DNA of 64,000 nt from Streptomyces umbrinus (lineage in GTDB: Bacteria; Actinomycetota; Actinomycetes; Streptomycetales; Streptomycetaceae): NCBI RefSeq assembly GCF_030817415.1, contig NZ_JAUSZI010000002.1, positions 7,316,001-7,380,000 of the forward strand, read 5' to 3'. Positions 34,476-51,529 of this stretch are shown in pieces. Position numbers and translations under genes: made by a program. How positions within the stretch are numbered: position 1 is the first letter of the stretch; each line of letters opens with the position of its first letter. A model generated the notes under the pieces. It ran no database searches and had not been told where the DNA came from. It worked only from the letters and a program-made list of their open reading frames with translations.

Positions 34476-34714
34476 TCATTCTGCGTCCTCCTCCTCGAAC
34501 AGTGCGGCGGCCAGCCCGATGCAGTCCAGAGCAGCTATGAACCTGGCCCATGCCTCGGCCGATATCGCGACGTGAGGTCCCTTTGGCCGATTGGAATCCT
34601 GTATCAGCGCACCGGCCGGTACGAAGGCGGCATCTACGCACTCGGTGCCGCTGCCGCCGCTGTACGACCACTTGAACCAGGCGAGGTCAGACAGGATTTG
34701 GGGGCGACGTACAT
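34476..34714 (-). pseudogene. Frameshifted DUF397 gene (left copy)
   Basis: From LAWFKWSYSGGSGTECVDAA to EAWARFIAALDCIG this is a DUF397 protein closely related to the intact copy at 46075-46281. The ATG equivalent to that copy's start (34714) is out of frame with the DUF397 body by one base, indicating an indel near 34695-34705. No other good start exists in the correct frame. Confidence 0.8.
34561..34690. repeat. Left copy of 130-bp direct repeat flanking the Druantia-like segment
   Basis: Aligns without gaps to 46127-46256; my hand alignment counts about 24 differences in 130 positions (about 82% identity). Both copies are DUF397 coding sequence on the minus strand. Confidence 0.8.
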
Positions 34715-34715
34715 T

Positions 34716-34855
34716 CGTAGCTCCTTGCGGATGTGGTGGACCGGGGAAGAGGAAGGCTCCATGTCTACCGCTTGTGCGCGGAAGCATTCGAAGGCAAGGC
34801 CGTCGAATTGCGAATCCGGCTCGTACACCTGTCGCGGAGCCGCTACGCTATGTGA
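34716..34855 (-). pseudogene. C-terminal fragment of an XRE/DUF5753 regulator (left copy)
   Basis: LAFECFRAQAVDMEPSSSPV then HHIRKEL matches the end of the intact regulator at 46282 (LAFEYLRAQALDMEASSSLI HRVRKEL). The N-terminal 240 residues are gone. The stop codon TGA of the intact copy reads CGA here, so the frame runs into the DUF397 start. Confidence 0.8.
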
Positions 34856-35065: not shown

Positions 35066-37165
35066 ATGAAAGCTGCGTACAGGCAGTGGCATGAGGCTCT
35101 CTCCACAGAATTCTTCGGTGCGGAACACGCGTTGCGGAGCGCGGTCCTGTATGTCGACGACGAGATCGAACGGCAGCTCGCAGAGGGGCAGGGCATCGGA
35201 ACGAGCCTGGCCCAGGCCGTTGCCGACGAACTCACCTGGAGCGACCTGGACAGACCCCTTTTCAGCGGTGTCCAGAGCGAGGTCGTGCAGTGGGAGAACG
35301 ACGGGAGTAAGGGACCACCGCCGAGCCTTCCGGTGCTCTCCCTGTCAGTGCTTGCTGCCACTCGCATGGCGTCCTCCGACGGGATGCTGAGGAGCAACTT
35401 CTACGGGCGCTGGATCCATCTGTTCGGCGAGCAGCCATCCGGCTACCGTGCGAACAAGCTGCAGAAGGCTTTCCTGGACGTCGCCGCCATGTGGGAGCAG
35501 CTCGATGCCTGGCTAGACGAGGCGGGTGGCCTCTACGGCACAAGTACGGTGAGCACGGACGACCACTACTGGAAGATCGGCTACCCCATCTCCCAGGCGC
35601 TGATCCGCGGTTCGGACCGGCAGATCCTCACCCGCTTCTTCGCCACCACCCGCCTGCGCCCGCGCAATCGAAACGGGGTCTCCGGTCGGGAGCTCCTGAG
35701 GCGGCTGTGCGTCTGGACGGCAGGGCGCGACCGGCATCTGTCCCCCCGACTCATGGAAGAACTCGCCAACGCGGTCGGCACCGGCGAAACGCTCATCACC
35801 AGTCTTCTCAAACGACTTGCTGATGACTGGGACGGGACTCTCCACGAGCCGGAGCGTGAGCACCGGCGCCGGGCCCTCGGGCTCCGGCTCATGGTTGCGG
35901 ACCGGGGGAGCCGCCTCGAATGGCTCGCCGAGACCGTGGAAGCGCTCCCCGAAACGGAGGTTGGTATACCCGGTGGGCGTGCTTTCAGACTCCGCGAGGA
36001 GTACGGCGGCGTCTACGACGGTCTGGAGTCGCTGCACCCCTCGCCGCAGCAACTGGCCCACGGCGTACGCCTTGAGGGCGACGCCCTTGTCCTGGAGTGG
36101 GCACCGCAGGAGGTCATACTGCTGCGGATGCATCCCCATCTCGGCGAGTGGGTGAGCACCGAGTACTTCGAACCGGGCGAGCAGCACTGGATCCTGGCCG
36201 CCGATTCCGTCGTCGGCGATGTGCGGGCCATGGTCAGTGCCCTCGGCGGCCGCACCGTCCGCCAAGCACCTGCGCCTGTACCGGGTTGGAAGCTGTTCAA
36301 GGGCGTGCGGGCTGTCAACGGGAGTGCCTTTGCCCGCACATTGGACCGAGGCGGAGCACATGCCCACGTCCTCGAGCCCCAGATCCGGCAGTACGCCGAG
36401 CTGTCCGGTGGGCTCCGCATCGCTTCCGAGTACCGGGCAGGCGCCGGTGTCGCAGGCCACTTCCTCCGCGGCGGCGCCCCGGACTTGCTGCTGCCTGCGA
36501 GCGAGGCCGCGGACGGACGAGTCAAGGTCGTGCTCGACGGCTGCACCGAGAAGTTGCGCGCCGACCCACGGGTCCCGTTCCCGCTCTGCGTAGTTCCCCT
36601 CGAAGAAGGTGCACACCAGGTAGGTACCGCTGAGAGCAGTCAGGTCTTCACCCTGCATGATGGACTGCACGAAGCGCTGCCGCCGGGTACTGGGATGCTC
36701 GGGTACTCCTGCGATGGCACCGCTCAGCGTGAGCTGACTGACGTCGAAGATCCTGAGGCGGCCATCCGCGGTGCATACACGCCTGAGAGCATCCGGCTCC
36801 CGCGTACCGAGCTAGTGCGGCGCACCGTCCTGGAAGCCGTGCTGATCGACCCTCACGGCGGTGTACGCAAAGTCAAGCAGCAGACCGTCCCAGCCTGGAT
36901 GGAGTCGCGCCTGCCAGAAGATGCTCTCGGCCCATGCGTTGAGGTCGAGGTGCCGACGGGCTACGTCTGGCTGGTCTACCGGACAGCAGCCCGGTGGTCG
37001 GTGCGGCCCTTGGCCGGAGCAGCGGATATACCCGAGCCCGCACCGTCCTCCGGCGACTTCGCGTGGGCATACGCCGTACTTAGCGCCGCCGAGCGCTCGC
37101 AGGACCCGGCCTGGCTCGACTACGTAGCGGCAGCCGATGGGATCGCCGGAAGACAGGGGGCCTGA
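35066..37165 (+). CDS. Druantia-like operon protein 1, large, unknown fold
   Basis: A 699-residue soluble protein with no motif I can assign. The first part (1-310) is helical, with WSDLDRPLFSGVQSEVVQWE and GRWIHLFGEQPSGYRANKLQ; the middle and C-terminal parts look beta-rich (VYDGLESLHPSPQQLAHGVR, GGLRIASEYRAGAGVAGHF). By position, directly before a small gene and a DruE-like helicase, it could correspond to DruF of type II Druantia systems; this is inference from gene order only. The stop overlaps the next ATG by one base (TGATG), so the three genes form a coupled operon. Confidence 0.75.
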   Translation: MKAAYRQWHEALSTEFFGAEHALRSAVLYVDDEIERQLAEGQGIGTSLAQAVADELTWSDLDRPLFSGVQSEVVQWENDGSKGPPPSLPVLSLSVLAATRMASSDGMLRSNFYGRWIHLFGEQPSGYRANKLQKAFLDVAAMWEQLDAWLDEAGGLYGTSTVSTDDHYWKIGYPISQALIRGSDRQILTRFFATTRLRPRNRNGVSGRELLRRLCVWTAGRDRHLSPRLMEELANAVGTGETLITSLLKRLADDWDGTLHEPEREHRRRALGLRLMVADRGSRLEWLAETVEALPETEVGIPGGRAFRLREEYGGVYDGLESLHPSPQQLAHGVRLEGDALVLEWAPQEVILLRMHPHLGEWVSTEYFEPGEQHWILAADSVVGDVRAMVSALGGRTVRQAPAPVPGWKLFKGVRAVNGSAFARTLDRGGAHAHVLEPQIRQYAELSGGLRIASEYRAGAGVAGHFLRGGAPDLLLPASEAADGRVKVVLDGCTEKLRADPRVPFPLCVVPLEEGAHQVGTAESSQVFTLHDGLHEALPPGTGMLGYSCDGTAQRELTDVEDPEAAIRGAYTPESIRLPRTELVRRTVLEAVLIDPHGGVRKVKQQTVPAWMESRLPEDALGPCVEVEVPTGYVWLVYRTAARWSVRPLAGAADIPEPAPSSGDFAWAYAVLSAAERSQDPAWLDYVAAADGIAGRQGA

Positions 37166-38112
37166 TGACTGACCCTGGAGACCTGCTGCTGCGCTGGGTG
37201 AGCGAGCAGGGCGCGGGCACGTTGTTCGATCTCAAGCAGGGCATGTGGTGGCTGGCAGCCAGACATTGTCCGGACATCGAGCCCGGTGCCCCGGGCCGCT
37301 GGCTGCGCGACGCCGTAGCCCTCGCACACATGGACATCGACTGGCACAACAGGCGCTGGTGCGCGGCCCCACCCGTCCTGACGCGGCTGCCGCAAGCCCG
37401 GGGTCTGGCGGTGCTGACCGGAAGCAGGACAGCCGCGTTTGACGCGCGCCTCACACAAGCAGTGCAGGACGGGTTGGTGGAGCTTTTCCGGGTGCCCAGC
37501 ACGCGCCCGCCGCGGGATATCCCCCTGCCCGTGTCGCTGATCGTCCAGTTCGACGACGAGGTAGGGCTCGCGGGATGGGCAGCCGAACTCGGAGTCTCGT
37601 ATACGCCATGTTTCGCCCTTCAAGGAGCTGCTCTGCTTCCGCCTCTTGGACTTGAAGTACGCACTTCTAAACCGGAGTTCGGGAAGCCGCTTGAGCAGTA
37701 CGACTTGGACCGTCGCGAGTACCAGCTCGTGCGCAGCCCTCAGGGCAACGGCCTGTACCGGCTCAAACGGCGCGACTCGAAGCGCGTGTGCCAGGTCCTG
37801 CGCGACGGCGAGTGGTACGAAACCAGCCATGAGCTGGGCGTCTACTTGGTTGTCGAGTCCCTGAGCCCGGACGCCGATGTGCTCCGCTGGCTACCTGAGA
37901 AGGACTGCGGGCGGGAGAGGTTCGGCACCCTGTACGTCGACTGGGGTTACCCGCTGCCGGACCTGCACAGGCGGGTGGCCGTCATGTGCTCCGGCCTCGC
38001 GCCCCGCATCAACGCGCATGCAGAGAACTTGGCGTACGACAACGTGCCCAAGACCGTTGCTATGAAGATTGCAGACTCGCTCGGACAGCACCTCGGGGAG
38101 AACGATGAGTGA
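37165..38112 (+). CDS. Druantia-like operon protein 2
   Basis: A 315-residue protein without a recognised catalytic motif. Visible segments are LLRWVSEQGAGTLFDLKQGM near the start, DWHNRRWCAAPPVLTRLPQA, and LRDGEWYETSHELGVYLVVE. It lies in the position of DruG in type II Druantia (inference). Its last 8 bp overlap the start of the helicase gene, pointing to stoichiometric co-expression. Base use is somewhat lower in GC than the flanking core genes. Confidence 0.75.
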   Translation: MTDPGDLLLRWVSEQGAGTLFDLKQGMWWLAARHCPDIEPGAPGRWLRDAVALAHMDIDWHNRRWCAAPPVLTRLPQARGLAVLTGSRTAAFDARLTQAVQDGLVELFRVPSTRPPRDIPLPVSLIVQFDDEVGLAGWAAELGVSYTPCFALQGAALLPPLGLEVRTSKPEFGKPLEQYDLDRREYQLVRSPQGNGLYRLKRRDSKRVCQVLRDGEWYETSHELGVYLVVESLSPDADVLRWLPEKDCGRERFGTLYVDWGYPLPDLHRRVAVMCSGLAPRINAHAENLAYDNVPKTVAMKIADSLGQHLGENDE

Positions 38113-41100
38113 CACCGTCGCGGAACAGTCCGGCAGCAGCGGCCGGGACGTCGACATCTTGGGCTCGTTCGAGCACCTGAAAGAGGCGCTTTTCCGCTAC
38201 TACAACACGCCGTTCGGCCTCGCTGACGAGCACCTGGAACGCGAGCGGCAGGACCTCTTCGATGTGGACGGCGGGGCGTGGCGGCGACCGCTCCTGGAGG
38301 TCCGCCCGCGGTACGTCACGATGGACGTGGGCATCGCGGAGTCCGTTCGCGAGGCAGGCGCTCACTCTGACCTTGCGGAACTGGTGCAGCTCGGCCTGCT
38401 GCAGGGTGTTCCGTCGCTTTACGAGCACCAGCACCGGGCCCTTGTTGCCGCGGTACGAGACGGACGTGACGTCGTGGTCACTGCCGGTACAGGCTCCGGC
38501 AAGACGGAGTCGTTCATGCTGCCGATCCTGGCCGACCTGGTCCGCGAGTCCGCAGCATGGCCGGTGGGCACGCTGCCGTTGAACCGCTGGTGGGCCTCTC
38601 CCGACGGTGAGTATCAGCCGCAGCGGGCAGGCGAGGGCGGGCGACACGCGGCCGTACGTGCTCTGGTCCTCTACCCCATGAACGCGCTCGTCGACGACCA
38701 GATGATGCGCCTGCGCAAGGCCCTCGACAGCGACGAGGTGCGGACTTGGCTTGAGCAGTCGCGGCCAGGCCACCGCTTCTACTTCGGCCGCTACACCGGA
38801 GCGACGCCCGTCCCTGGGGACCTCGGCTCGCCCGTCGGTGTGAAGACGCTGCGCAGGGAGTTCGCTGCAACTGAGGAGCGCTCGCGCCAGGCGCAGAAGG
38901 CCGAAGGAGACGGCCGGTTCTTCATCCCGAAGCTCGATGGTGGGGAGATGCGCTCCCGGTGGGACATGATCCAGGCTCCACCGGACATCATGATCACGAA
39001 CTACAGCATGCTCAACGTCATGCTGATGCGGTCGCGCGAGTCAGGCATCTTCGAGATGACGCGCCGCTGGCTGGAGGAAGTCCCGGATGCACGCTTCACG
39101 TTGGTCGTCGACGAGCTCCATATGTACCGCGGCACCGCGGGCACTGAGATCGCCTACCTCCTGCGCAACCTGCGGCACCGATTGGGCCTCGACGACAAGC
39201 CGGAGAAGTTCCGGATCGTCGCGGCCTCCGCCTCTCTTGAGGCGCCTCGAGACCTGGACTTCCTGCAGGAGTTCTTCGGGGCTGACCGCGATCGGTTCGA
39301 AGTCCTCGGCGGCCAGCTCGTATTGCCGCCCCACACGCGGACCGACATCTCTGAGCACATTGAGGCGTACGCAGGCCTGGGTGCAGACCCCGATTCCGCC
39401 GAGGCTGAAAGGTTTCTGGCCGATACCGGAGCGTCCGATGCATTCGTCAACGCACTGCGCAAGGGCGACCGGCTGATCGCGGACTTCGACACTGAAGTCG
39501 CCGCCAAGCTCTTTCCTTCCGCCGACTCCACCAGGCAGGGACAAGCGCTGCAGGGGGTCCTCGCCGTCCTGCGCCGCTCCGAGAACCCGAAGACCCCCAA
39601 GCTCCGGGGACACCTCTTTTTCCGCAACATCCCCGGAGTCTGGGCCTGTTCAGACCCTGCATGCCCCGACGCCCAACGCCGCGAAGGCGCCGGGAGGACC
39701 GTCGGCAAGCTGTACTCCCGGCCCACGCCACGATGCAGTTGTGATGCACGCGTACTTGAGCTTCTTTACTGCCAGAACTGCGGTGACGCCTTCCTCGGCG
39801 GATACGCACCGGGATCGGCCTTTCAGAATTCCAAAGACCGCCCCTTCAAAGCCGGCCTGCTGGCGGACCTGCCAGAGCTCGACTCGCTCCCGGATGCTGC
39901 TCTTGGGCCGAGTGCGGCCAACTACATTGTCTACTGGCCGCGCAAGGATGACCCGGCCACGGACGAGCTGGCCTGGAACTCCTCATCTGACAAGGGAACA
40001 CTGAGCGGGAGCTTCGAGTTCAAACGCAGCACGTACAACCCGCGTACCGGCATGCTCCGGAACCAGCGGGACCACACGGGCTGGTCCTTCCACGTCAGCG
40101 TCCCCAAGCCCAAGAATGGCAGAGCTCGGCTCAAGGCCGAGAACCTCCCCGCGGCGCCGACCCGGTGCCCTTCATGTGGCGATGACTGGGAGGTCCGGCA
40201 GGTCGGGAGCGAACACCTTAGTCTGAGCGACCCCCGGCGTATGCGCACACCGGTCCGCTCTATGCGAACTGGTTTCGAGAAGGTCAACCAGGTGCTGACC
40301 ACCGGTATCCTTTCCAACCTCCCAAACCGGCAGGCCGTGGTCTTCTCTGACAGTCGGCAGGATGCGGCCAAGCTGTCGGCAGGCCTCGGACTGCGCCACT
40401 ACCAGGACCTGTTGCGCCTGCTGCTTGCTGAGGAGGTCGCGGGCCAGGGCGACCCGGCAGCTGACCTCGCCGCCGTCGCAGGCTTCTACCGCAAGTCGCC
40501 CGAAAAGCCGGTGGACAGGGCGACGGCCAAGGCCGCGCGCGACCGGCTCCGCGCCCGAGACCGGGATACGTACGACGCGTGGGAGAAACTCCAGAAACCC
40601 GAGGCCTCCGAAAGCATCGATGACCTCAGCGACGACCATCCCGACCCCGCTGAGGAGCAGGCGCTCTATGGCCTTCTGAGCCGCGTACCGTGCCTCGACA
40701 GCCACACTGCTGCTGTCGCTGAACGCCTCGTGCATCTCGGCGTTAACCCCGGTGGCCCGAAGGCATCCCTCCAGCAGACGGCCTATCAGAAGGGCTCTCT
40801 GCCGCAGCCCTGGACCTCTCTGTACCGCTGGCCCGAGGGCGGGGACGGCCGAGTGCAGGATGAATCAGGCCTCGTACTGAGCGAGCGGCAGGAGCAACTG
40901 CGCCAGGACATGCGCGAAGACCTCAGCAGCGAGCTTCTCAACGGACTCTTCGGCAGTGCTGGGCGCGACTTCGAATCCCTCGGATTGGGGTGGCTCACTC
41001 TGGCTTCCGACCAGTGGCTGCTCGAGGCAGAGCGGGCGTCCGATGCAGCGCTGGCCCGGGCGAGTCTGCGGGTCCTCGGCCACATGCGCCGGTTCGCCGG

Positions 41101-43693
41101 GCTGCGGAGCCCGGCGGACAATCCGCCAAAGAAGCTCCGGGACTTCTGGGCCAGCGCAGCAGATCACCTTGGGCAGGACAAGGACGACCTCCAGGCGACG
41201 GTGGAGCGGATCTGGGGGGCCGCAGTCGCCAAGTACGTCATCCAACCTGAGCACGTGGCACTGCGCCATGGGCGCGATGTGTCCTGGACCTGCTCCACCT
41301 GCCGCCGCCGACACCTCCACCCAGGTGTCGGCGTCTGCACGAAATGCGGACGTCCTCTCCCTGCGACGCCTGAGCCGTTCGAGAGCACCGACGCGGATTA
41401 TTACGCCTGGATGGCCCGTAACCAGTTCGGGAACTTCCGGCTCAGCACTGCCGAACTCACCGGTCAGACGGACCGCCTTGATGCGCAGGCACGACAGGCC
41501 CGCTTCCAGGGCATCTTCCTGAACGGCAAGGAGAATCAGCTCCCCGACAGGCTCGACGTCCTCTCCGTCACCACCACAATGGAAGCCGGCGTCGATATCG
41601 GCCCCCTCTCGGCAGTCCTCATGGCCAACATGCCGCCGACCCGGTTCAACTACCAGCAGCGTGTCGGCCGGGCAGGACGTCGCAGCTCGCCGGTCGCGCT
41701 CGCACTCACCGTGTGCCGCGGACGAAGCCACGACGAGCACTACTTCCAGGACCCGAAGCGCATCACCAACGACGCCACTCCGCGACCGTACTTGTCCACT
41801 GACATGAAGGACATCTACCAACGCGTGTTCGCAGCGGAGGTGCTGCGCCGGGCGTTCGACGCTGTACAGACCGCCGCTGACGACGATGGCGGGCTCGACC
41901 CGACCCGCAACGTCCACGGCCAGTTCGGCCGCTGCGCAGACTGGCCCGTGGTAGCCGAGGCCGTGAGTGCGTGGATCAAGTCGCATGATGCCGAGATCCG
42001 AAGCCTTGCCGAAGCGCTCGCTGAGCGGACCCGCGGTACATGGCACCCGGCTGAGGCCACGGCATGGGTGGACGGCGAGCTCGTCAATCGCGTCACGCAG
42101 ATCGCGGACCGTCCTCAGGGTCACCATGAACTCAGCCAGCGGTTGGCAGAGTCAGGCCTCCTGCCGATGTTCGGATTCCCCACATCTGCCCGGTACTTGT
42201 ACACGAAGCGCCCTTTCGATTCGTATCCGTGGCCGCCGAGCGGAGTCGTCGACCGGTCGTTGGACATCGCCATCTCGCAGTTCGCGCCCGGTGCTGAGAC
42301 TGTCAAGGACGGACAGGTCCATACAGCTGCGGGCGTCGTTGCGTTCGAGCCGACAGGAAGGGCCCCGCGGGCCGTGGAAGAGCCGTTCGGGCAGGCTGCA
42401 CTGATCGGTATCTGCCGAGCCTGCGGTCACCTTGCGGAGAATGTGGAGACGCCGCTGACGCAGAATGACGGCGCGCCACCGCAGTCCTGTCGCGCCTGCG
42501 GAGCTGCCGACGGCTCGTACCGCGAGATCGAACTCCGCGAACCGGCAGGTTTCTACTCCGCAGGCAAGGCCCGTGACTTCGACGGCAACTTCGCTTGGCG
42601 GGCCAGGTCGCTGGCGCCTCGAACCGCCGCAGACCTCGAGCACGGCGCCCCCCTGGCGATTGCGACGCCGGGCATGGTTGTCCACGCAGGTAAAGGCCGC
42701 CGTTACGCCGTCAACGACAACGGCGGCCGACTGTTCAACTTTACGAAGGTGAGTCCAGCTGCACGCTGGTCCGGGGCGTATCTGGAGGCCGGGGCAGCGG
42801 AGTTGTTCCCTTGGCTGAAGAAAGACATCGCAGCAGACGAAGAGCTGCTGACAACGGCCATCGGCGCCACTCAGCACACCGACCTGTTCCTCCTAGGACC
42901 TCATGCCGGAGAGATCCCTGCTCTCGGACTGCGCCTCAACCTCACGTCCATTCCCCAGAGCACCGGCTTCCCGGACGACCGCTCAGGAAGGCGGGCTGCC
43001 TGGTACTCGCTCGCCGCACTGCTCCGGACGGCCGCGGGTGAACTCCTCCAAGTTCAGCCCAACGAGATCGCTTCCGGCATCCACGGCGCAGGATCCGGCA
43101 GCCGGGAAGCACGCACCTTCGCTTTCCTCTCCGACACGCTGGACAACGGCGCTGGCTACTGCACGCACCTTGCCGACCCCGAGGTGTTCAACCAGCTCAT
43201 GGCCACCGCGCATAAGAAGCTGGCCAAACTCAAGGAGGGCGCGCACGGTCGTGACTGCGGAGGCTCGTGCTACGAGTGCCTCCGTGATTACACGAACATG
43301 GCCTACCACAGCCTGCTCGACTGGCGTCTAGCCGGTGACCTCCTCTCCATTCTCCGGGAGGGCAAAGACGCTGCGAGCAGCCAGCGGGCCCGGGGGGCTA
43401 TGGGACTGCTGCGGAACTGGGCGGCGGACTTCCCTCTCGGGGACGCGGAGTTCGTGGACGACCTCGGAGGCACAGGACCTGCGGTCCTCTTCGAAGAGCG
43501 GGTCTGGGTCGCCGCGAAGAGCCCGTTCGAGGCTGCCGACGAGCCTCTGCAGCCAGTCCGAATCAGTGCTGTGCGCAAGGCTGCCGCATCGGACAGCCGA
43601 GGTGTTCCGGACGTGGTCTTCATAGACGACTTCCTGCTCGACAAGGCTCCGGCACGAGTTGCGGCCCTGCTTGCCGACTTCGATGGAACGTAG
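38105..43693 (+). CDS. DruE-like giant DEAD/DEAH helicase with DUF1998-type C-terminus
   Basis: An 1862-residue superfamily 2 helicase. Motif I TAGTGSGKTES is near residue 131, Ia VLYPMNALVDDQ near 191, motif II VVDELHMY near 334, and motif VI QQRVGRAGRR near 1183, following TTTMEAGVDIG (motif V). At least four cysteine clusters sit outside the core: CSDPACPDAQRR ... CQNCGDAF near 520-560, CTCRR/CTKCGRPL near 1060-1080, CRACGHLAEN ... CRACGAADG near 1435-1465, and CGGSCYECLRDYTNMAYHSL near 1717-1736, the DUF1998 signature. Size and layout match DruE, the defining helicase of Druantia anti-phage systems; DISARM DrmA/DrmB splits these parts over two genes. Confidence 0.88.
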   Translation: MSDTVAEQSGSSGRDVDILGSFEHLKEALFRYYNTPFGLADEHLERERQDLFDVDGGAWRRPLLEVRPRYVTMDVGIAESVREAGAHSDLAELVQLGLLQGVPSLYEHQHRALVAAVRDGRDVVVTAGTGSGKTESFMLPILADLVRESAAWPVGTLPLNRWWASPDGEYQPQRAGEGGRHAAVRALVLYPMNALVDDQMMRLRKALDSDEVRTWLEQSRPGHRFYFGRYTGATPVPGDLGSPVGVKTLRREFAATEERSRQAQKAEGDGRFFIPKLDGGEMRSRWDMIQAPPDIMITNYSMLNVMLMRSRESGIFEMTRRWLEEVPDARFTLVVDELHMYRGTAGTEIAYLLRNLRHRLGLDDKPEKFRIVAASASLEAPRDLDFLQEFFGADRDRFEVLGGQLVLPPHTRTDISEHIEAYAGLGADPDSAEAERFLADTGASDAFVNALRKGDRLIADFDTEVAAKLFPSADSTRQGQALQGVLAVLRRSENPKTPKLRGHLFFRNIPGVWACSDPACPDAQRREGAGRTVGKLYSRPTPRCSCDARVLELLYCQNCGDAFLGGYAPGSAFQNSKDRPFKAGLLADLPELDSLPDAALGPSAANYIVYWPRKDDPATDELAWNSSSDKGTLSGSFEFKRSTYNPRTGMLRNQRDHTGWSFHVSVPKPKNGRARLKAENLPAAPTRCPSCGDDWEVRQVGSEHLSLSDPRRMRTPVRSMRTGFEKVNQVLTTGILSNLPNRQAVVFSDSRQDAAKLSAGLGLRHYQDLLRLLLAEEVAGQGDPAADLAAVAGFYRKSPEKPVDRATAKAARDRLRARDRDTYDAWEKLQKPEASESIDDLSDDHPDPAEEQALYGLLSRVPCLDSHTAAVAERLVHLGVNPGGPKASLQQTAYQKGSLPQPWTSLYRWPEGGDGRVQDESGLVLSERQEQLRQDMREDLSSELLNGLFGSAGRDFESLGLGWLTLASDQWLLEAERASDAALARASLRVLGHMRRFAGLRSPADNPPKKLRDFWASAADHLGQDKDDLQATVERIWGAAVAKYVIQPEHVALRHGRDVSWTCSTCRRRHLHPGVGVCTKCGRPLPATPEPFESTDADYYAWMARNQFGNFRLSTAELTGQTDRLDAQARQARFQGIFLNGKENQLPDRLDVLSVTTTMEAGVDIGPLSAVLMANMPPTRFNYQQRVGRAGRRSSPVALALTVCRGRSHDEHYFQDPKRITNDATPRPYLSTDMKDIYQRVFAAEVLRRAFDAVQTAADDDGGLDPTRNVHGQFGRCADWPVVAEAVSAWIKSHDAEIRSLAEALAERTRGTWHPAEATAWVDGELVNRVTQIADRPQGHHELSQRLAESGLLPMFGFPTSARYLYTKRPFDSYPWPPSGVVDRSLDIAISQFAPGAETVKDGQVHTAAGVVAFEPTGRAPRAVEEPFGQAALIGICRACGHLAENVETPLTQNDGAPPQSCRACGAADGSYREIELREPAGFYSAGKARDFDGNFAWRARSLAPRTAADLEHGAPLAIATPGMVVHAGKGRRYAVNDNGGRLFNFTKVSPAARWSGAYLEAGAAELFPWLKKDIAADEELLTTAIGATQHTDLFLLGPHAGEIPALGLRLNLTSIPQSTGFPDDRSGRRAAWYSLAALLRTAAGELLQVQPNEIASGIHGAGSGSREARTFAFLSDTLDNGAGYCTHLADPEVFNQLMATAHKKLAKLKEGAHGRDCGGSCYECLRDYTNMAYHSLLDWRLAGDLLSILREGKDAASSQRARGAMGLLRNWAADFPLGDAEFVDDLGGTGPAVLFEERVWVAAKSPFEAADEPLQPVRISAVRKAAASDSRGVPDVVFIDDFLLDKAPARVAALLADFDGT

Positions 43694-43850
43694 TGGACAG
43701 CAGCTTCGCTCAGCGTCCGTAACTGTAGGGGCAGTTGACAGCTGTGGTAGATCCGGCCGTCGGCAGTCGTGCGCGCAAGCCTCGACCGCCGGCAGCCTGT
43801 GCCAGCGTGATCACGTGAGGAAGTAGGGCATGGTCGAGCCGGAGGCGGAT

Positions 43851-45272
43851 ATGAGCGACCCGGTACTGCTGCAGCGGTTCGCAGCGTGGCTTCAGCCGCA
43901 GCCGTCGGTGGAGGATGCGGAACGCAGAGAGTTCTTCCAGGACGGGATCATCGTTCTCGACACGAACGTGCTCCTCAGCCTGTACGAGTACACAGAGACG
44001 TCCCGTGAAGAGGTCCTCTCGGCACTCGAGCAGACCGCGGGGCGGCTGTGGATGCCGTACCAGGTCGGTCTTGAGTTCGTACGCGGACGCCGCAGCACGC
44101 TCGAGTCGCGGAAGAGAGCACTCTCAGACGCTGCGTCAGAGGTCAACAAGAAGCTCATGGCCGCGCGCAAGGCAATCGTGGAAGCCAAAAATCTCGTGTG
44201 TGCCCAGCTTGAGAAGTACGCCCGCGCTCCGGAGGAGATAGCCAGTCTCGATGAACTGACCAAGGACTCGGCGGTTGACAAGCACCTGTCCGTCTACAGG
44301 GAAGAGTTCAAACGCCACCTGGACATGCTGAAGGCTGATCACGACCTGGCTTTGAATGCGGCCGATGCAGTGGATCCGATCCTGCCGCGCGTCGCGAAAC
44401 TCTACGGGGAAGGCGTCGGCCAGCAGCCGAACGACGAAGTCCTCCGCACGCGCCTCGAGGAAGCCACCACCTTCCGGTTCCCGAACAAGATCCCGCCCGG
44501 GTTCGCAGACTCCGACAAGGACACACCGCTGAGGTCGGCTGGAGACTTCCTGCTCTGGGAAGAGCTGATCGAGCACGTTAGCCAGCTGCCCCAGTCCAGT
44601 CGCCGTGTGCTGTTCGTATCGAACGACACGAAAGAGGACTGGTACGAGTCTGAGTCCGGCTCGCGCAATTCACGTCCGTGGCCGAGTCTCATCGACGAGC
44701 TGAAGCGGAGGGCAGGCGCAGATCTGAGGATCGAGACCCAGCTGAACTTCTACGGCGGGATAAGGGAGTTTCTGGACGCCGAGCTCGCTGAGGACACCTA
44801 CGCAGAGATTGTGCGGGTGTCTGGGACCTTCGACGGGAAGATCCAGGACGACGGGATACTCGTCAACGCGGAGTCTGCCCCCCAACTTGCTCCGCCGGAG
44901 GGGCTGGCGCTGTCCGCATTGCAGTCGGTGGAGCTTGCGTCCTCGGCCGTACGCGTTGCTCTTGAGTCGTCCTCCCCATCCCAGTGGATGTTCCAGTGGT
45001 GGCTCATCGGTGTGACGGCCCAGCTGGGGCGACGAATCCCCGAGGAATGGGAGCCCAGCATTGACATCGCAGCGGCATCGAGAAGCCTTGAGCCGCCGTC
45101 CCCGCTGTGGAAACCGGGTACAGTCCTGCCGCCGGGGGAGTGGCTCCACCGGGACTCGTCGTGGATCGCGCCGTGGTTCATGGAACTCCTGGACGCTACT
45201 CCGCAGATGGACCGCGCCGTACTGCGCAGACTCGCAGCACAGCAGGCAGAGAAGAACCGACGCTCCCGTTAG
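43851..45272 (+). CDS. PIN-like (PIN_8/DUF4935) nuclease-domain protein
   Basis: A 473-residue protein. IVLDTNVLLSLYEYTETSRE around residues 33-52 carries the first PIN aspartate, LWMPYQVGLEFVRGRRS the Glu, and FLLWEELIEHV with VLFVSNDTKEDW the later acidic residues, so a metal-dependent RNase/DNase activity is plausible. Residues 80-170 are coiled-coil-like. ATG 43851 has GGAGG five bases upstream; ATG 43830 is in frame but poorer. It lies 157 bp after the helicase on the same strand, and is likely an additional defence or toxin gene of the island. Confidence 0.82.
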   Translation: MSDPVLLQRFAAWLQPQPSVEDAERREFFQDGIIVLDTNVLLSLYEYTETSREEVLSALEQTAGRLWMPYQVGLEFVRGRRSTLESRKRALSDAASEVNKKLMAARKAIVEAKNLVCAQLEKYARAPEEIASLDELTKDSAVDKHLSVYREEFKRHLDMLKADHDLALNAADAVDPILPRVAKLYGEGVGQQPNDEVLRTRLEEATTFRFPNKIPPGFADSDKDTPLRSAGDFLLWEELIEHVSQLPQSSRRVLFVSNDTKEDWYESESGSRNSRPWPSLIDELKRRAGADLRIETQLNFYGGIREFLDAELAEDTYAEIVRVSGTFDGKIQDDGILVNAESAPQLAPPEGLALSALQSVELASSAVRVALESSSPSQWMFQWWLIGVTAQLGRRIPEEWEPSIDIAAASRSLEPPSPLWKPGTVLPPGEWLHRDSSWIAPWFMELLDATPQMDRAVLRRLAAQQAEKNRRSR

Positions 45273-45396: not shown

Positions 45397-45990
45397 GTGG
45401 CGATAGAGAATCAGGGTGCGTTCGAGGCGTGGGGGCGTCTGAAGCCTGACACTGAGTTCGCGGTCAAGGCGCTCAGTTCAGCCTTGGAGGAGTCAGAAGC
45501 ATCGCCTGATGCGATCCTGGATTCCTACCTTTTTGCGAAGCGCGCTCTGGCCCAGTCCATGCAGTCGCTACTGCGGTCGCAACTCCCTCCGACCTGCGTT
45601 GAGTTCCACGAGTTGCGGGTTCGGATCCAGGATGAAATGCACTTGAGGTTCTCTGGGCACGTACCGGAGCGGTATTTGAAAGTTCCCTACGGAACGAAGG
45701 CCAACGAGCGGCTGTTTGCCGTCCTTCACCGGGAGATCGGCTCGCCTGTCGACAATGCTCGCCTCCGCACTATCAATGGGGACGACATCCACACGGAGCG
45801 CCGCATCAGGGAGCTCAGAGAACTCGGACTGGACATCACTACGACCACGGAGGACGGTCGGCGGCACTACATCCTGGGCTCACTCGAGATCGACAGCGCC
45901 AAGATCCGAGAACTCGTCGTCAAGACGCTCGGCAAAACGAAGGCGGTCTCGAAGGAAGAGAAGAACGAGATCATTGCGCGGCTCCCGTAG
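45397..45990 (+). CDS. Winged-helix-like protein downstream of the PIN gene
   Basis: A 197-residue protein. Residues about 105-160 (LFAVLHREIGSPVDNARLRT, then ERRIRELRELGLDITTTTED) look like a winged helix-turn-helix of the type found at the N-termini of some restriction nucleases. The N-terminal 95 residues are helical with no known motif. GTG start at 45397. It is the last gene of the rightward block 35066-45990; it could regulate the island or bind target DNA. Confidence 0.65.
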   Translation: MAIENQGAFEAWGRLKPDTEFAVKALSSALEESEASPDAILDSYLFAKRALAQSMQSLLRSQLPPTCVEFHELRVRIQDEMHLRFSGHVPERYLKVPYGTKANERLFAVLHREIGSPVDNARLRTINGDDIHTERRIRELRELGLDITTTTEDGRRHYILGSLEIDSAKIRELVVKTLGKTKAVSKEEKNEIIARLP

Positions 45991-46074: not shown

Positions 46075-46281
46075 TCAGTTGTCCTGGTCCAGCCGAACAG
46101 CCAAGAAGCTGCCCCACGCCTCTGCTGATATCGCTACGTGAGGCCCCTCCGGCCGCTTGGAGTCCCGTACCAGCACACCGGTCGGCACGTAGGTAGCCTC
46201 CAAGCACTCGGTCGTGTTGCCGCCGCTGTACGACGACTTGAACCAGGTGTGGTCAGGAGCGAGCTGAGGGCCGATGGACAT
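46075..46281 (-). CDS. DUF397 protein (intact copy)
   Basis: A 68-residue DUF397 protein, the usual small partner of XRE/DUF5753 regulators in streptomycetes: TWFKSSYSGGNTTECLEATY, VRDSKRPEGPHVAISAEAW. The ATG at 46281 directly follows the regulator's TGA stop. Pairs of this type act as regulators of development or toxin-antitoxin-like units, the DUF397 protein binding the regulator. Confidence 0.9.
   Translation of the reverse strand: MSIGPQLAPDHTWFKSSYSGGNTTECLEATYVPTGVLVRDSKRPEGPHVAISAEAWGSFLAVRLDQDN
46127..46256. repeat. Right copy of 130-bp direct repeat flanking the Druantia-like segment
   Basis: Ungapped counterpart of 34561-34690, in the same orientation; the two copies bracket about 11.4 kb holding the three-gene operon, the PIN gene and the winged-helix gene. 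Confidence 0.8.
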
Positions 46282-47127
46282 TCATAGCTCCTTGCGGACG
46301 CGGTGGATCAGGGATGAGGAAGCTTCCATGTCCAACGCTTGTGCGCGAAGGTACTCGAACGCAAGTCTGTAACGCTCCAGTTCTTCGTCCTTCTCCAGGA
46401 ACAGCGACCCGGTGTGGAAGTCCACATACACGACGTCGAGAGCAGGTTCGCTGCCTCCGATCATCACGAAGCTTCCGAGGGCCGCGGAATGGGCGCCTTT
46501 GGAGAACGGAAGTACTTGGAGAGTGATGCTCGTGGACTCGTTCGCTGCAAGCAGCCGACCGAGCTGCTCCTTCATGGTCTCCGGCGAGCCAACGACGCGA
46601 CGGATCACAGACTCATCGAGGATCGCCCACAACCGCGGGGGCCTGGGCCTCGTAAGGATGTCTTGCCTCTTCATCCGGATGTCCACGAGCCGCTCGATCT
46701 CGGCCTGCTCCAGACGTACTTCGTTGGCCTGCTGCAGGGCTGTGCTGTAACCGCGGGTTTGCAGGAGCCCGGGAACGTAGACGCATGAGAAGTGATCCTC
46801 GCGTACAGCCTCATCCTCAAGTGTGAGCAGAAGGTTCATGCTCTCGGGGATGGAGTCGGCGAAGGAGTTCCACCAACCCTGCTGCTTGGCGTCCTTGGCA
46901 AGACCGACAACTGCCCTGCGCTCGGCGTCAGTTGCTCCGTACTCGCGGCAGAGTGCGTCAATCACCAGCCACTTGACCGGCCCGGCTTGGGTCTCGTACC
47001 GGCTGACGGTGGCCTTGGAGACGCCAACGAGCTGCCCGGCCTCCTCAAGCGTCAGCCCTTTGTGGGCGCGCAGCTTGCGCATCATCGCGCCCAGCTGACG
47101 GCGCCGGGTCGTGGTTCGGACTGACAT
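46282..47127 (-). CDS. XRE-family regulator with DUF5753
   Basis: A 281-residue DNA-binding regulator. Residues 10-65 are a cro/C1-type HTH (LRAHKGLTLEEAGQLVGVSK, ATVSRYETQAG), and residues 95-270 a DUF5753 ligand-type domain with YVPGLLQTRGYSTALQQANE and ESTSITLQVLPFSKGAHSAA. It ends in RVRKEL, followed at once by the DUF397 gene. The upstream region carries a dyad that it may bind. It is divergent from an anti-sigma-like ATPase gene, the standard streptomycete trio. Confidence 0.92.
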   Translation of the reverse strand: MSVRTTTRRRQLGAMMRKLRAHKGLTLEEAGQLVGVSKATVSRYETQAGPVKWLVIDALCREYGATDAERRAVVGLAKDAKQQGWWNSFADSIPESMNLLLTLEDEAVREDHFSCVYVPGLLQTRGYSTALQQANEVRLEQAEIERLVDIRMKRQDILTRPRPPRLWAILDESVIRRVVGSPETMKEQLGRLLAANESTSITLQVLPFSKGAHSAALGSFVMIGGSEPALDVVYVDFHTGSLFLEKDEELERYRLAFEYLRAQALDMEASSSLIHRVRKEL

Positions 47128-47340: not shown

Positions 47341-47973
47341 ATGACCGGCTACGAAGTCACCGCACCCCGACTCCGCTGTGTTCTCCCCTTTGAGGCAGAG
47401 CCGGCGGAGGTGCGTTTGCTTCGGAGGGCTGCCTCGGCACAGCTCAACCTGTGGGGAATGCGTGAGGCTGCCGAGGAAGCAGAGCTGCTTGTTACTGAGT
47501 TGGCGACGAACGTCATCAAGCATGTAGGGGAAGGTGCTTCGGCGACCTTGATCCTTGAACTGCAGAGCGAGCGACTCCGTGTCGAAGTCCACGACAAGAG
47601 CCACGTGGTCCCGTCCCTCGGGTCTGCAGGCTGTGATGAGGAATGCGGTCGCGGCCTGCACTTGCTCGCGGCCTTGGCCGCGGACTGGGGAACGGTCCTG
47701 TCGGCGGCGGGCAAAGCGGTCTGGTGCGAGGTAACGCTTGACTATGGCCCTGCCTGCCGCCGTGTCGAGCGCGCTGTCGGCGCCCTCGAGAGTTATCAGG
47801 AAGCCTGCGGAGGTGCCGTCCTTCACGGTGGCAGAAGAGATACCGGGCTTGAGGAGTCGGCGGTGGAGCTGATCGCCGATCTGCTCCACTGGACTGCTGC
47901 CCGGGGATGTGATCCAGACGGCATCCTCGAACGGGCCCAGATGCACTACGAAGCCGAGGCGGACGCGGCCTAG
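47341..47973 (+). CDS. HATPase_c (anti-sigma factor RsbW-like) protein
   Basis: A 210-residue protein. Residues about 25-125 show a GHKL ATPase fold: ELLVTELATNVIKHVGEGAS is the N-box, and GCGRGLHLLAALAADWG (read from CDEECGRGLHLL) the G-rich box. A C-terminal helix-rich tail (VELIADLLHWTAARGCDPDG) is typical of this streptomycete subfamily. It may act as an anti-sigma factor or accessory kinase. ATG 47341 was chosen because domain similarity starts there. It overlaps the convergent HNH gene by 4 bp. Confidence 0.85.
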   Translation: MTGYEVTAPRLRCVLPFEAEPAEVRLLRRAASAQLNLWGMREAAEEAELLVTELATNVIKHVGEGASATLILELQSERLRVEVHDKSHVVPSLGSAGCDEECGRGLHLLAALAADWGTVLSAAGKAVWCEVTLDYGPACRRVERAVGALESYQEACGGAVLHGGRRDTGLEESAVELIADLLHWTAARGCDPDGILERAQMHYEAEADAA

Positions 47974-48722
47974 TGGGCGCTGTTCTGTGCGGACTTCCGT
48001 ATCTCATCCCGAAGGGCGCCCGGAGTACGCCAGGATTCACCGGGACGGCTCCTGTGGCACATGCGGTGACAGTTGGAGCACACGCATGCGAGATCCTCAA
48101 GCTTGGTCCTCCGGAGACCGGAGAGGTAGAGGGGAGTGACGTGGTGCACTTCGATGTAGCCCTCGCCGAGGTCTCCGTAGATGCGGGCGAAGTTGAAGTC
48201 GCAGACCTCGCACGTCAGGGGGCGCCCGTCACGACTAAGCTGCCGGATTTTCTGCTTACGAAGCTTCGGGTCCCGCTCGCGGGCGAGCGCCCGGCGGACG
48301 AGGAGCCGTCCCTCGATGGCCGTGAACCCCTCGTCGTCGTCGACCTCGTCGGGCTGCCGGGGCAGGAGATGCAACTCGCCGGATCCGATGCCCTCTTCGA
48401 TGGCCTGGGCGGCTTGGAGCATTTCGGGCTCGCGCTCAGTGAACGCCTTGATCATCTGGAGAGTGGGCTCGCCGCAGCGGGTGGGCTTGCCGGAGTAGGA
48501 GCCGTAGTTCGTGGCGAAGTCCGTGGTCTTCCGGCTGACGCTGTCCAGGGAGCGGAATTCAGGCAGGGCCCTGGCTTCCGGGCTGTGAATCGGCAGCGAG
48601 CGCAGCAGCTCGGACAGTTCTTGCACCTCCTGGTCGCCGGTCCTCAGCTCACGCCAGCCGTTCTTCACGACGAGCGCTCCAGCCAGCACGAGTTCGTCTT
48701 CAGTCCACGCAGGGCTCTTCAT
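47970..48722 (-). CDS. McrA-like HNH endonuclease
   Basis: A 250-residue protein. The N-terminus (WTEDELVLAGALVVKNGWRE, then LSELLRSLPIHSPEARALPE, and RSLDSVSRKTTDFATNY) is the modified-base-recognition-like domain of McrA-type nucleases. The C-terminal HNH shows CEVCDFNF, YIEVHHVTPLYL, and CVCSNCHRMCH, all zinc and catalytic residues intact. Such proteins cut DNA with modified cytosines or phosphorothioate. A methylcytosine-specific nuclease beside a C5-methyltransferase would be dangerous unless specificities differ, so it could instead be restriction-related. Divergent from the methyltransferase gene. Confidence 0.82.
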   Translation of the reverse strand: MKSPAWTEDELVLAGALVVKNGWRELRTGDQEVQELSELLRSLPIHSPEARALPEFRSLDSVSRKTTDFATNYGSYSGKPTRCGEPTLQMIKAFTEREPEMLQAAQAIEEGIGSGELHLLPRQPDEVDDDEGFTAIEGRLLVRRALARERDPKLRKQKIRQLSRDGRPLTCEVCDFNFARIYGDLGEGYIEVHHVTPLYLSGLRRTKLEDLACVCSNCHRMCHRSRPGESWRTPGALRDEIRKSAQNSAH

Positions 48723-48883
48723 GAGCAATATCGTATGAGTGTTCGGCGCGGCGGAGGGTGCGTGCAACGAACGCCGCGGCATGTTGCACACTGTGTCGAG
48801 TCTCGTTGTCAGTGGGACCTGTCACCCTTAGTGATGGTGGATTGCAAGGTGTGTCTGCCGCTGTACGGCTGTAAGGAGGGGGC

Positions 48884-50074
48884 ATGACCCGCATGAACGA
48901 AGTCGAATACACCTCGGTGGAGATCTGTGCTGGAGCAGGAGGGCAGGCCATCGGCCTGCATCAGGCCGGTTTTCGGCACCTCGCGCTCGTAGAGATCGAC
49001 TCTCATGCGGTGAAGACGCTCGCTGAGAACATCAGGATCGATAGGGAGTGGAGCTGGGAGAGGGCGCACTGTGACGTTCTGTCAGTGGACGTCAAGGAGT
49101 TCTCTCCGGCCAGGGACCTCAAGAAGAGCGGCGAGCTGCTGGGGAGGCATGAACTGGACCTCCTGGCGGGAGGCGTCCCGTGCCCGCCGTTCTCGCACGC
49201 CGGCAAGCAACTAGGCAAGGACGACGAGCGCGATCTCTTCCCACGAATGCTGCAGCTCGTCCAGGAGCTGAAGCCGCGTGCCGTGATGATCGAGAACGTG
49301 CGCGGGATCATGGATCCGAAGTTCTCCGACTACCGCGACTGGATCGTGGCTCAGCTCCAGGGCGGCACTTATCGAGGCGAGGACGGTCAGCAAACTCGCA
49401 CAAAAGGCCTTGGCTACACCGTCTGCAAGTGGGGGATCCTGGAGGCCAGCGACTTCGGAGTCCCGCAGCTTCGTCCGCGGGCGATCCTCGTAGCCTTCCG
49501 TAATGACGTCATCAAGGACGTGAAGTACGAGTGGCCGACGCCGACACATGAGGAGCCGGTCAGCGTCGCGGACCGGCTTGAGGAATCCATGCTGGAGCGG
49601 TACGAGCGGTACTTCAACGGGGTTCATGAAGCTCGGGCCCGCAAAGCCTATGGCCGCTGGCTCACTCAGGCGCGGAAGCGGGATGCCGAGCTCAAGGGCA
49701 AAGGCGGCGGTATTGCACCGACGCTGGTCGGGGGGTCCAAGAAGCACGGTGGAGCTGATCTCGGCCCCAGCCGCGCTAAGGCTGCATGGAAGCAGCTCGG
49801 TGTCTGTGGGCTTGGGGTTGCCAATGACGCTGAGACCTGCGCAGAGAAGGGCACTGAGGATCGGGATCTCTTCGGGGAGGGCGGCCCGATGCTGACGGTG
49901 GAGCAGGCCGCGATCATCCAGGGGTTCCCACGCAAGTGGCAGTTCCAAGGCGGCAAGACGGCGCAGTACCGGCAGGTTGGCAATGCCTTCCCGCCACCAG
50001 TGGCCAAAGCGGTCGGAGAGTCGATCATCGACGTCTTGAAGGCTGCGCGTGAGCGTGACCGTAAGAAGCGCTGA
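48884..50074 (+). CDS. DNA C5-cytosine methyltransferase (M.NaeI-type candidate)
   Basis: A 396-residue enzyme. Motif I EICAGAGGQAIGL is at residues 13-25, motif IV GGVPCPPFS has the catalytic Cys near residue 100, motif VI MIENVRG lies near 135, motif VIII QLRPRAILVAF near 197, and motif X YRQVGNAFPPPVAKA near 368. The target-recognition region lies between 230 and 340. Adjacent Vsr and NaeI-family genes indicate that it protects the NaeI-type site GCCGGC (inference). The ATG at 48884 has AAGGAGG upstream. A possible alternative role is DruM of a type II Druantia. Confidence 0.93.
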   Translation: MTRMNEVEYTSVEICAGAGGQAIGLHQAGFRHLALVEIDSHAVKTLAENIRIDREWSWERAHCDVLSVDVKEFSPARDLKKSGELLGRHELDLLAGGVPCPPFSHAGKQLGKDDERDLFPRMLQLVQELKPRAVMIENVRGIMDPKFSDYRDWIVAQLQGGTYRGEDGQQTRTKGLGYTVCKWGILEASDFGVPQLRPRAILVAFRNDVIKDVKYEWPTPTHEEPVSVADRLEESMLERYERYFNGVHEARARKAYGRWLTQARKRDAELKGKGGGIAPTLVGGSKKHGGADLGPSRAKAAWKQLGVCGLGVANDAETCAEKGTEDRDLFGEGGPMLTVEQAAIIQGFPRKWQFQGGKTAQYRQVGNAFPPPVAKAVGESIIDVLKAARERDRKKR

Positions 50075-50560
50075 TCAGCTGTTCCTCTCCGCAACAGAGT
50101 TGCGGCGGTGCTTGACCTCGGTCGCGATCTGCTCCGCGCACTCTGCTGATGGCTGATGTTCCCAGAACCGGAGCACCGTCCAGCCGGCCTCGGCCAGGCG
50201 CTGGTCGGTATCCCGGTCGCGGGCCATGTTTCGGGCCACTTTGTCCGACCAATAGCCCGGGTTGGTTTTCGGCGGTACATAGTGTTCTGGGCAGCCATGC
50301 CAGTAGCAGCCATCAATGAAGACCGCGATCTTCACCGGACGGAAGACCATGTCGGCCGTCCGGCGAAGATCAGGAAGAGGCTTGGCTGCGACACGGTAGC
50401 GAAGTCCTTGAGCGTGAACGAGCCGACGGATCATGCGCTCCGGAGTGGTGTCCCGGCTGCGGATGGCCTGCATGTTTCGGCGGCGCGCTGCTGATGAGGC
50501 CCAGGACCCGGATGGCGGAGTCCAGGGCGAACGGCCGTCTTCGTGCTCTGTGTTCGTCAT
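50075..50560 (-). CDS. vsr: Very short patch repair endonuclease
   Basis: A 161-residue mismatch nuclease that nicks at T:G mismatches from deaminated 5-methylcytosine. Motifs are RSRDTTPERMIRRLVHAQGL, RRTADMVFRPVKIAVFIDGC (catalytic Asp), YWHGCPEHYVPPKTNPGYW and the terminal WTVLRFWEHQ. It lies 12 bp downstream of the restriction endonuclease gene and its stop abuts the methyltransferase stop (convergent, no gap). It repairs mutations caused by its partner methyltransferase. Confidence 0.95.
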   Translation of the reverse strand: MTNTEHEDGRSPWTPPSGSWASSAARRRNMQAIRSRDTTPERMIRRLVHAQGLRYRVAAKPLPDLRRTADMVFRPVKIAVFIDGCYWHGCPEHYVPPKTNPGYWSDKVARNMARDRDTDQRLAEAGWTVLRFWEHQPSAECAEQIATEVKHRRNSVAERNS

Positions 50561-50572
50561 TGGGCGCTGCGA

Positions 50573-51529
50573 TCAGTATTCGGCAGGGGCCGGGACGGGA
50601 GAATCCCCCTCTTCCCAGACTGTATATTCCTGGCCGGAGATTTGCGTGGATTTTCTGGTCGGCTCAAGGTCGTCTGCGCAGGCAACGCGAATCGCGATCC
50701 ACGATCCTTTTTCGGGTACTTGAAGGCCCAGTGCGCGAGCAATGTGAGGATGCTGTTTCTGATGGCCGAGGATCATGATTCCCTCGTTACGGAGATGATG
50801 ACGGGCGTCACGTACTCGCTTCAGACTGTCGTCCTGGCGGGCCACCGTGAGGACAGTATTACGGTTTACCAGGCGATCTTGTACGCGGCGAAATAGTTCA
50901 TTGGTGCGCGCCTGTCCGCTGGCCCCAGTCTTAAAGATTGCGTTCCTGTCTGTGTCCGAGAGGGTCAGCAGAATGTTCTCAGGGAGTCTTCCCTCAGGGA
51001 TAATCCACTGTATGGCGCTCCGCCCGGCGACTGACGGTGTGCGCTTGCCGTCCCTGTTCTTTCCCACGTTCAAGAGGGTGTCATGGATTCGGAGCAGCCC
51101 GATCTGATAGCTCGCCTTGAGGTCATTCGCCCTGATCAGTAGACAGATGTGCCCGTCGGCTTCGCGTGGAATTGTCCAGTTGTCGCCGCTTGTGAATTTC
51201 GAGTCCACGTCGTGGCTGAAAATGGAGAAATCCATCTTCTTTCCGCGGTCGAGGTTGAATTCGGCGCGGGTGATGATCTCGACTTTTGTTCCCAGGTAAG
51301 TTTTTTCTGTTTTTTCGAGATCTTTAATGTTGAAGCGACCTGTTCGCTGTCCGTCGAGAACTTCATCGATCGACTGACGTAGCACCTGGCCGAATCGGGC
51401 TTCGAGGTTCGGTTGCATCCTGAGCCAGTTTTGAACCTCAAGTAAATTCGGGTCAGGGTCGAGGCGGGATGGCGGGTTTGCAACCTTCAACGCTGCCGCA
51501 ATATCGCGTCCGAAAAGAGAATCTTCCAA
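50573..51529 (-). CDS. NaeI-family type IIE restriction endonuclease
   Basis: A 318-residue protein, almost the length of NaeI (317). VLDGQRTGRFNIKDLEKTEK, GTKVEI, DFSIFSHDVDSKF, ADGHICLLI, GQARTNELFRRVQDRL and RNEGIMILGHQKQHP align with NaeI as I recall it. By this alignment the catalytic residues are E84, D100, D109 and K111 (NaeI E70, D86, D95, K97), all conserved. Residue V57 stands where NaeI has L43, the position where lysine turns NaeI into a topoisomerase. NaeI binds two GCCGGC sites. TTG start at 51529 with a GAGGA site. Lower GC than neighbours (40% at 51301-51360) suggests recent transfer. Confidence 0.92.
   Translation of the reverse strand: MEDSLFGRDIAAALKVANPPSRLDPDPNLLEVQNWLRMQPNLEARFGQVLRQSIDEVLDGQRTGRFNIKDLEKTEKTYLGTKVEIITRAEFNLDRGKKMDFSIFSHDVDSKFTSGDNWTIPREADGHICLLIRANDLKASYQIGLLRIHDTLLNVGKNRDGKRTPSVAGRSAIQWIIPEGRLPENILLTLSDTDRNAIFKTGASGQARTNELFRRVQDRLVNRNTVLTVARQDDSLKRVRDARHHLRNEGIMILGHQKQHPHIARALGLQVPEKGSWIAIRVACADDLEPTRKSTQISGQEYTVWEEGDSPVPAPAEY

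Follow-up and report, generated by a model that had tools for sequence, protein, structure and literature searches.

A putative intact copy of Druantia type IV, a known defence system built on a giant helicase, in a Streptomyces-like chromosome

What is the three-gene block that ends in a giant superfamily 2 helicase in this Streptomyces-like chromosome, and what could its parts be doing? The block lies in the window, the whole stretch of 64,000 nucleotides that was analysed, where the original prediction saw a Druantia-like operon with a DruE helicase, read the two companion genes as the F and G of type II and considered that the whole might represent a new subtype. The operon and its helicase are borne out by our analysis and the subtype is not: judged by its profile matches, druF-druL-druE is an intact copy of Druantia type IV, a known defence system built on a giant helicase. 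The three genes overlap on the forward strand, as had been described: druF (DruF4) occupies 35066..37165 (699 aa), druL (DruL4) 37165..38112 (315 aa), and druE (DruE4), which encodes a YprA-like superfamily 2 helicase, 38105..43693 (1862 aa from its ATG). The TGA stop of druF (37163-37165) has one base in common with the ATG of druL (37165), and the overlap between the ATG of druE (38105) and the stop of druL (38110-38112) covers 8 bases; an in-frame TTG at 38069 is an alternative start for druE that would lengthen its product from 1862 to 1874 aa. This arrangement suggests a single transcription unit, and a sigma-70 scan found no promoter-like site. Since third-position GC is of the coding type in all three genes and full-length homologues exist for DruF, DruL and DruE (the closest, at 93-94% identity, in Streptomyces albicerus), the three open reading frames are not the product of chance.

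The best PADLOC profile is the type IV profile for each of the three proteins, and the matches are nearly full-length: DruF matches PDLC00055 with 1211 bits (residues 1-698), DruL matches PDLC00057 with 425 bits (residues 4-313), and the 1874-aa form of DruE matches PDLC00051 (DruE4) with 2577 bits (residues 27-1872). The helicase has a YprA-like core in common with DrmA/DrmB of DISARM and with other YprA-family defence helicases (PMC12458937), but DrmA is not its best match; the profile search suggested with the original prediction, which set DruE against DrmA/DrmB, came down on the side of DruE4, with DrmA at no more than 46 bits among the 25 of 33 matching families listed. General databases are far less informative. 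Pfam recognises only DEAD and Helicase_C on DruE, NCBIfam gives weak matches under its cut-offs, and PF27116 is also listed for P0178, the listed protein that is identical to the 1862-aa form. Neither DruF nor DruL has a Pfam or NCBIfam match, which explains why the companions had seemed to be without recognisable domains; that description stands for these two databases and fails for PADLOC, where they are DruF4 and DruL4 and not the F and G of type II. DruG is absent from the families listed for 14 scanned island proteins (25 of 33 families being listed for the helicase and 25 of 60 for the methyltransferase), and there is no DruH profile among the PADLOC matches of DruF and DruL. The subtype itself already has a name: Druantia type IV was introduced in 2021 by Payne et al., who defined it as DruE, DruF and DruL without DruM and DruG, counted 168 cases in RefSeq v201 across 11 phyla, and described DruL as a hypothetical protein without domain annotation (PMC8565338). 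The core in the window shows no difference from theirs, with DruE, DruF and DruL encoded by overlapping genes in an operon-like block and no DruG seen. Our literature search for type IV Druantia found only this naming paper, and no experimental study or phage test.

The arrangement is stable wherever we found it. Comparison loci were 26 with a DruL homologue (5 records and 21 matches outside the window's genome) and 11 further ones reached via the long DruF profile (11 of the 17 genomes matched, the remaining 6 being already represented). All 38 loci, window included, have F, L and E in this order on one strand. DruL4 has a patchy distribution: of 293 genomes of the order 21 have it, counting the one that contains the window. 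One locus, L003, has its druE frame broken in two and for this reason is missing from the 37-row DruE tree.

The comparison brought out a relationship between the two companions. Sequence comparison identifies the C-terminal third of long DruF chains as a homologue of DruL: in two long PADLOC DruF2 profiles the start matches the window DruF and a region near the end matches the window DruL, and an alignment of 56 DruL sequences (A1, picked from the window protein and 109 homologues) matches residues 721-999 of the 1003-aa DruF P0177 with an hhalign probability of 97% and an E value of 4.9e-11. P0177 in turn matches DruL4 (E 3.3e-8), and a search with the divergent DruL P0109 matches the C-terminal part of a long DruF profile (E 2e-21). 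F and L also share one open frame in 7 of the 38 loci (L106-L110, L114 and L115), of which L114 is strong for both parts (DruF E 2e-64, DruL E 7e-93), while the DruL part is weak in L106 (1e-8) and L108 (2e-6). The DruE tree sets five fused loci apart, groups L115 with one split-gene clade and places L114 in the midst of split-gene loci, positions that long branches make unsure; the simplest reading would be that joining or splitting of F and L has happened more than once. The homology of DruL with part of DruF, and their occurrence in a single frame in 7 of the 38 loci, make type IV look like a two-subunit system, probably a two-part machine of DruFL plus DruE. We did not find the DruF-DruL relationship stated in the accessible text of PMC8565338, and it may still be published. 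Type II, which has DruE and DruF in common with the present system, also carries a trace of it, as the long DruF2 profiles include a DruL-like C-terminal part (PMC8565338 for the parts). DruF has 68 homologues at E up to 0.001. Its AlphaFold2 model is of moderate confidence (pLDDT 76.7), with residues ~1-260 predicted to be mostly helical and the rest beta-rich, including a weakly Ig/Fn3-like piece near 440-535, and for DruL the model is of high confidence (pLDDT 92.4), with a winged-helix-like start and an alpha/beta remainder. Among DruF relatives, the 903-aa P0171 carries a precomputed PF03852 (Vsr) match and a Vsr-like N-terminus, which could be a real fusion or a join made in gene calling.

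The motor itself appears intact. In the 1862-aa numbering, DruE has a Walker A motif (GTGSGKT) at 128, a DEAH-like box (DELH) at 336, motif VI (QRVGRAGR) at 1185 and seven CxxC pairs, so that the motifs and cysteine clusters noted at the outset are all present. In a comparison set of 117 sequences longer than 1700 aa, taken from 120 listed of 1893 matches and including the window's own, every position of the three helicase motifs is conserved in at least 110 sequences and the first six CxxC pairs in all 117. C1718, C1722 and C1725 are likewise found in 117/117, and a candidate fourth cysteine, C1686, in 70/117. Pfam DUF1998, named in the original prediction for the end of the protein, has no match in the window DruE, and an accession that we take to be DUF1998 is listed for 4 of the 120 listed relatives. 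The last ~130 residues are poorly conserved, with the exception of a few positions: E1809, R1819 and D1841 are invariant (117/117) and K1805 is present in 111/117. The residue two before K1805, the position that D or E takes in a (D/E)xK motif, is acidic in none of the 117 sequences (A in 84, I in 18, V in 10, T in 3, C in 1 and L in 1), and [DE]xK anywhere in the tail is absent from 98 and occurs one or more times in 19. The missing (D/E)xK at K1805 agrees with the inactivated Vsr nuclease domain predicted for DruE of types I and II (PMC12458937). The invariant E1809, R1819 and D1841, together with K1805 and the 19 tails with [DE]xK, leave room for a possible unusual catalytic site in the tail.

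How could such a system act on a phage? We give about equal credence for and against a mechanism in which the intact type IV system would consist of a DruFL sensor or loader unit and a DruE motor that disrupts phage DNA replication. DruF and DruL would act as the single unit DruFL, which would probably sense infection or specific DNA and then load or license DruE; by analogy with type III, DruE would be a motor working on the 3' single-stranded DNA of phage replication intermediates and would thereby disrupt replication. Since DruE has no recognisable nuclease site, cutting, if any, would be the work of another protein, be it host nucleases, the NaeI system or the PIN_8 neighbour. Complex formation, sensing, substrate and outcome are here what we infer, with type III DruH-DruE as the guide, a system that also combines a DruE core helicase with a large, fast-changing partner (PMC13192584, PMC13316683). 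There, the sensor DruH is less conserved than DruE, which has been argued to reflect sensing, DruE prefers 3'-tailed and forked DNA (PMC13192584), and DruH-DruE blocks both the circularization and the replication of phage DNA (PMC13316683). No confident fold match was obtained for DruF or DruL (for DruF, weak matches only), so the sensor role rests on analogy. In 32/32 loci compared, a set that leaves out the fused L106-L110, DruF is less similar to its window counterpart than DruE is; this would fit a sensing role, but weak constraint could have the same effect. The analogy is also imperfect because type III DruE has a predicted active PLD nuclease domain (PMC13192584), whereas Pfam finds none in the present DruE. 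The DruH profile is matched by neither DruF nor DruL. As for complex formation in type III itself, mass photometry detected no stable DruH-DruE complex (PMC13192584), while another group reports their interaction to be essential (PMC13316683).

A different division of labour would place the effector in the gene right after druE, here PIN_8, and make DruFL-DruE its sensor and activator, a possibility that we consider worth stating and unlikely. The PIN_8 gene (43830..45272, forward strand, 480 aa; Pfam PIN_8 E 4.6e-58) begins 136 bases past druE and is followed on the same strand by a gene for a 197-aa protein (45397..45990), a frequent companion of PIN_8 that Pfam and PADLOC both leave unmatched at E up to 0.01; neither gene is mentioned for type IV in the accessible text of PMC8565338. 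PIN_8 occupies this position in 6 of 9 close loci (the window, L002, L003, L005, L006 and L031), where the gene calls put it -4 to 165 bases after druE, and other clades fill the same slot differently: a 580-aa protein in 10/10 loci of one clade (6 from gene calls, 4 by tblastn), a PtuA/PDC-M01A-like ATPase family in 4/4 loci of another (one member scanned), and a match to a DruK-type PD-(D/E)XK nuclease in L106 and L107. These replacements and the lack of (D/E)xK at the conserved lysine of DruE speak for an effector in the slot. PIN_8, however, is missing in 3 of the 9 close loci (L004, L029 and L030), and the related L046-L049 have no downstream gene in common. Near-full-length PIN_8 relatives (at least 56% identity) occur in 5 of 293 genomes, window included, and only 2 of the 5 lie after druE; in the other three (L080, L081 and L082), which are without a DruL match, PIN_8 adjoins a homologue of the 197-aa protein, so that the two genes may be an independent module. 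DruF, DruL and DruE were not found in the stretch around PIN_8 in these three genomes, the L080 contig starting 0.6 kb upstream of PIN_8. This weighs to some extent against a dedicated role for PIN_8, which is an optional neighbour and no defining part of type IV.

Other features of this region can be noted in their own right. The 197-aa homologue stands beside PIN_8 in L002, L003, L080, L081 and L082, while L005, L006 and L031 have PIN_8 without a 197-aa match; PIN_8 and the 197-aa protein thus recur as a pair with or without Druantia and could be a small defence or toxin-antitoxin-like module. In L029 and L030 a convergent gene takes the place of PIN_8 after druE, with a short piece related to the 197-aa protein nearby, and Pfam and PADLOC both identify the convergent gene of L029 as an AspBHI/Mrr-type methyl-directed endonuclease. 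The clade with the 580-aa protein comprises L041 (1172-3807), L032, L034-L037, L040 and L042-L044; in the six called cases the gene starts 0-3 bases past druE and is followed by one for a ~300-aa protein, with which it could form an accessory pair. The 580-aa protein has no PADLOC or Pfam match (one member scanned). The different genes found in this position from clade to clade suggest an accessory slot directly after druE. A broader version, in which a two-subunit chassis (a DruFL sensor and a nuclease-less DruE motor) would be served by effectors exchanged clade by clade, such as PIN_8, the DruK nuclease, the PtuA-like ATPase or the 580-aa protein, is tentative and we doubt it as much as the effector role of PIN_8 itself.

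The preferred reading, a DruFL unit with a DruE motor, also has to be weighed against what lies further downstream. From about 34 to 51.5 kb the GC content is about 0.60-0.67, the rest of the window being mostly 0.68-0.75 with some dips to 0.64-0.67, and this island also holds PIN_8, the 197-aa gene, an XRE/DUF5753 regulator with a DUF397-type gene, an HNH protein, a cytosine methyltransferase and NaeI. The last three belong, with a Vsr-like frame recognised by eye (50075-50560), to a NaeI-type restriction system at 47970-51529. The methyltransferase (48884-50074) is the nearest one found, 5.2 kb downstream of druE and 0.5 kb from the NaeI endonuclease gene, in agreement with the earlier remark that none is directly attached to the operon. 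In a type II-like system, Druantia type II being reportedly first described by Doron et al. in 2018, this enzyme could act as DruM and mark self DNA. DruM2 is indeed the profile that it matches best (371 bits, the best MTase_II reaching 286, among 25 of 60 families listed), and related proteins, forming a cluster of which the one member scanned (L038_u1) matched DNA_methylase, are among the called neighbours in 9 of the 26 other loci. We nevertheless find this improbable, more so than an effector in the slot: the enzyme sits by the NaeI gene as a restriction partner would, its position differs from locus to locus, and the DruG of a type II system is not seen among the families listed for the 14 island proteins. 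That the three genes are a housekeeping helicase operon and no defence system is hardly credible: YprA members outside the defence branch are indeed DNA repair-related helicases (PMC12458937), but the patchy distribution of DruL, the lower-GC island with restriction genes and a DruE4 score far above those of other helicase profiles all argue against it.

Some observations on the surroundings complete the picture. NaeI and Vsr (Pfam) also lie next to Druantia IV in L003, and the NaeI, Vsr and methyltransferase clusters are all represented in L004 too. Two similar stretches, 34522-34798 and 46090-46365 (79% identity over 279 aligned columns), bracket the block from druF to the 197-aa gene and hold a DUF397-type gene and the end of an XRE/DUF5753 regulator, the left copy keeping only the last residues of the regulator, to 34822. 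In S. albicerus (L002), likewise, the left-hand copy is partial and the right-hand one full, and these flanking copies in both genomes suggest an insertion or recombination at the locus.

The operon is a complete and ordinary member of a known subtype; what deserves attention in it is the relationship between F and L, together with the possible effector slot. It provides an intact, high-GC example of a Druantia type for which our search found only the naming paper. With a DruE that has no recognisable nuclease motif, it raises the question whether phage DNA is cut in type IV at all, and by what. If DruL is a detached piece of DruF and no unrelated third component, the parts list of type IV becomes shorter. 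The relationship suggests co-expressing DruF with DruL and accounts for one of the differences between types II and IV, and typing by the presence or absence of DruL would partly record gene fission and fusion.
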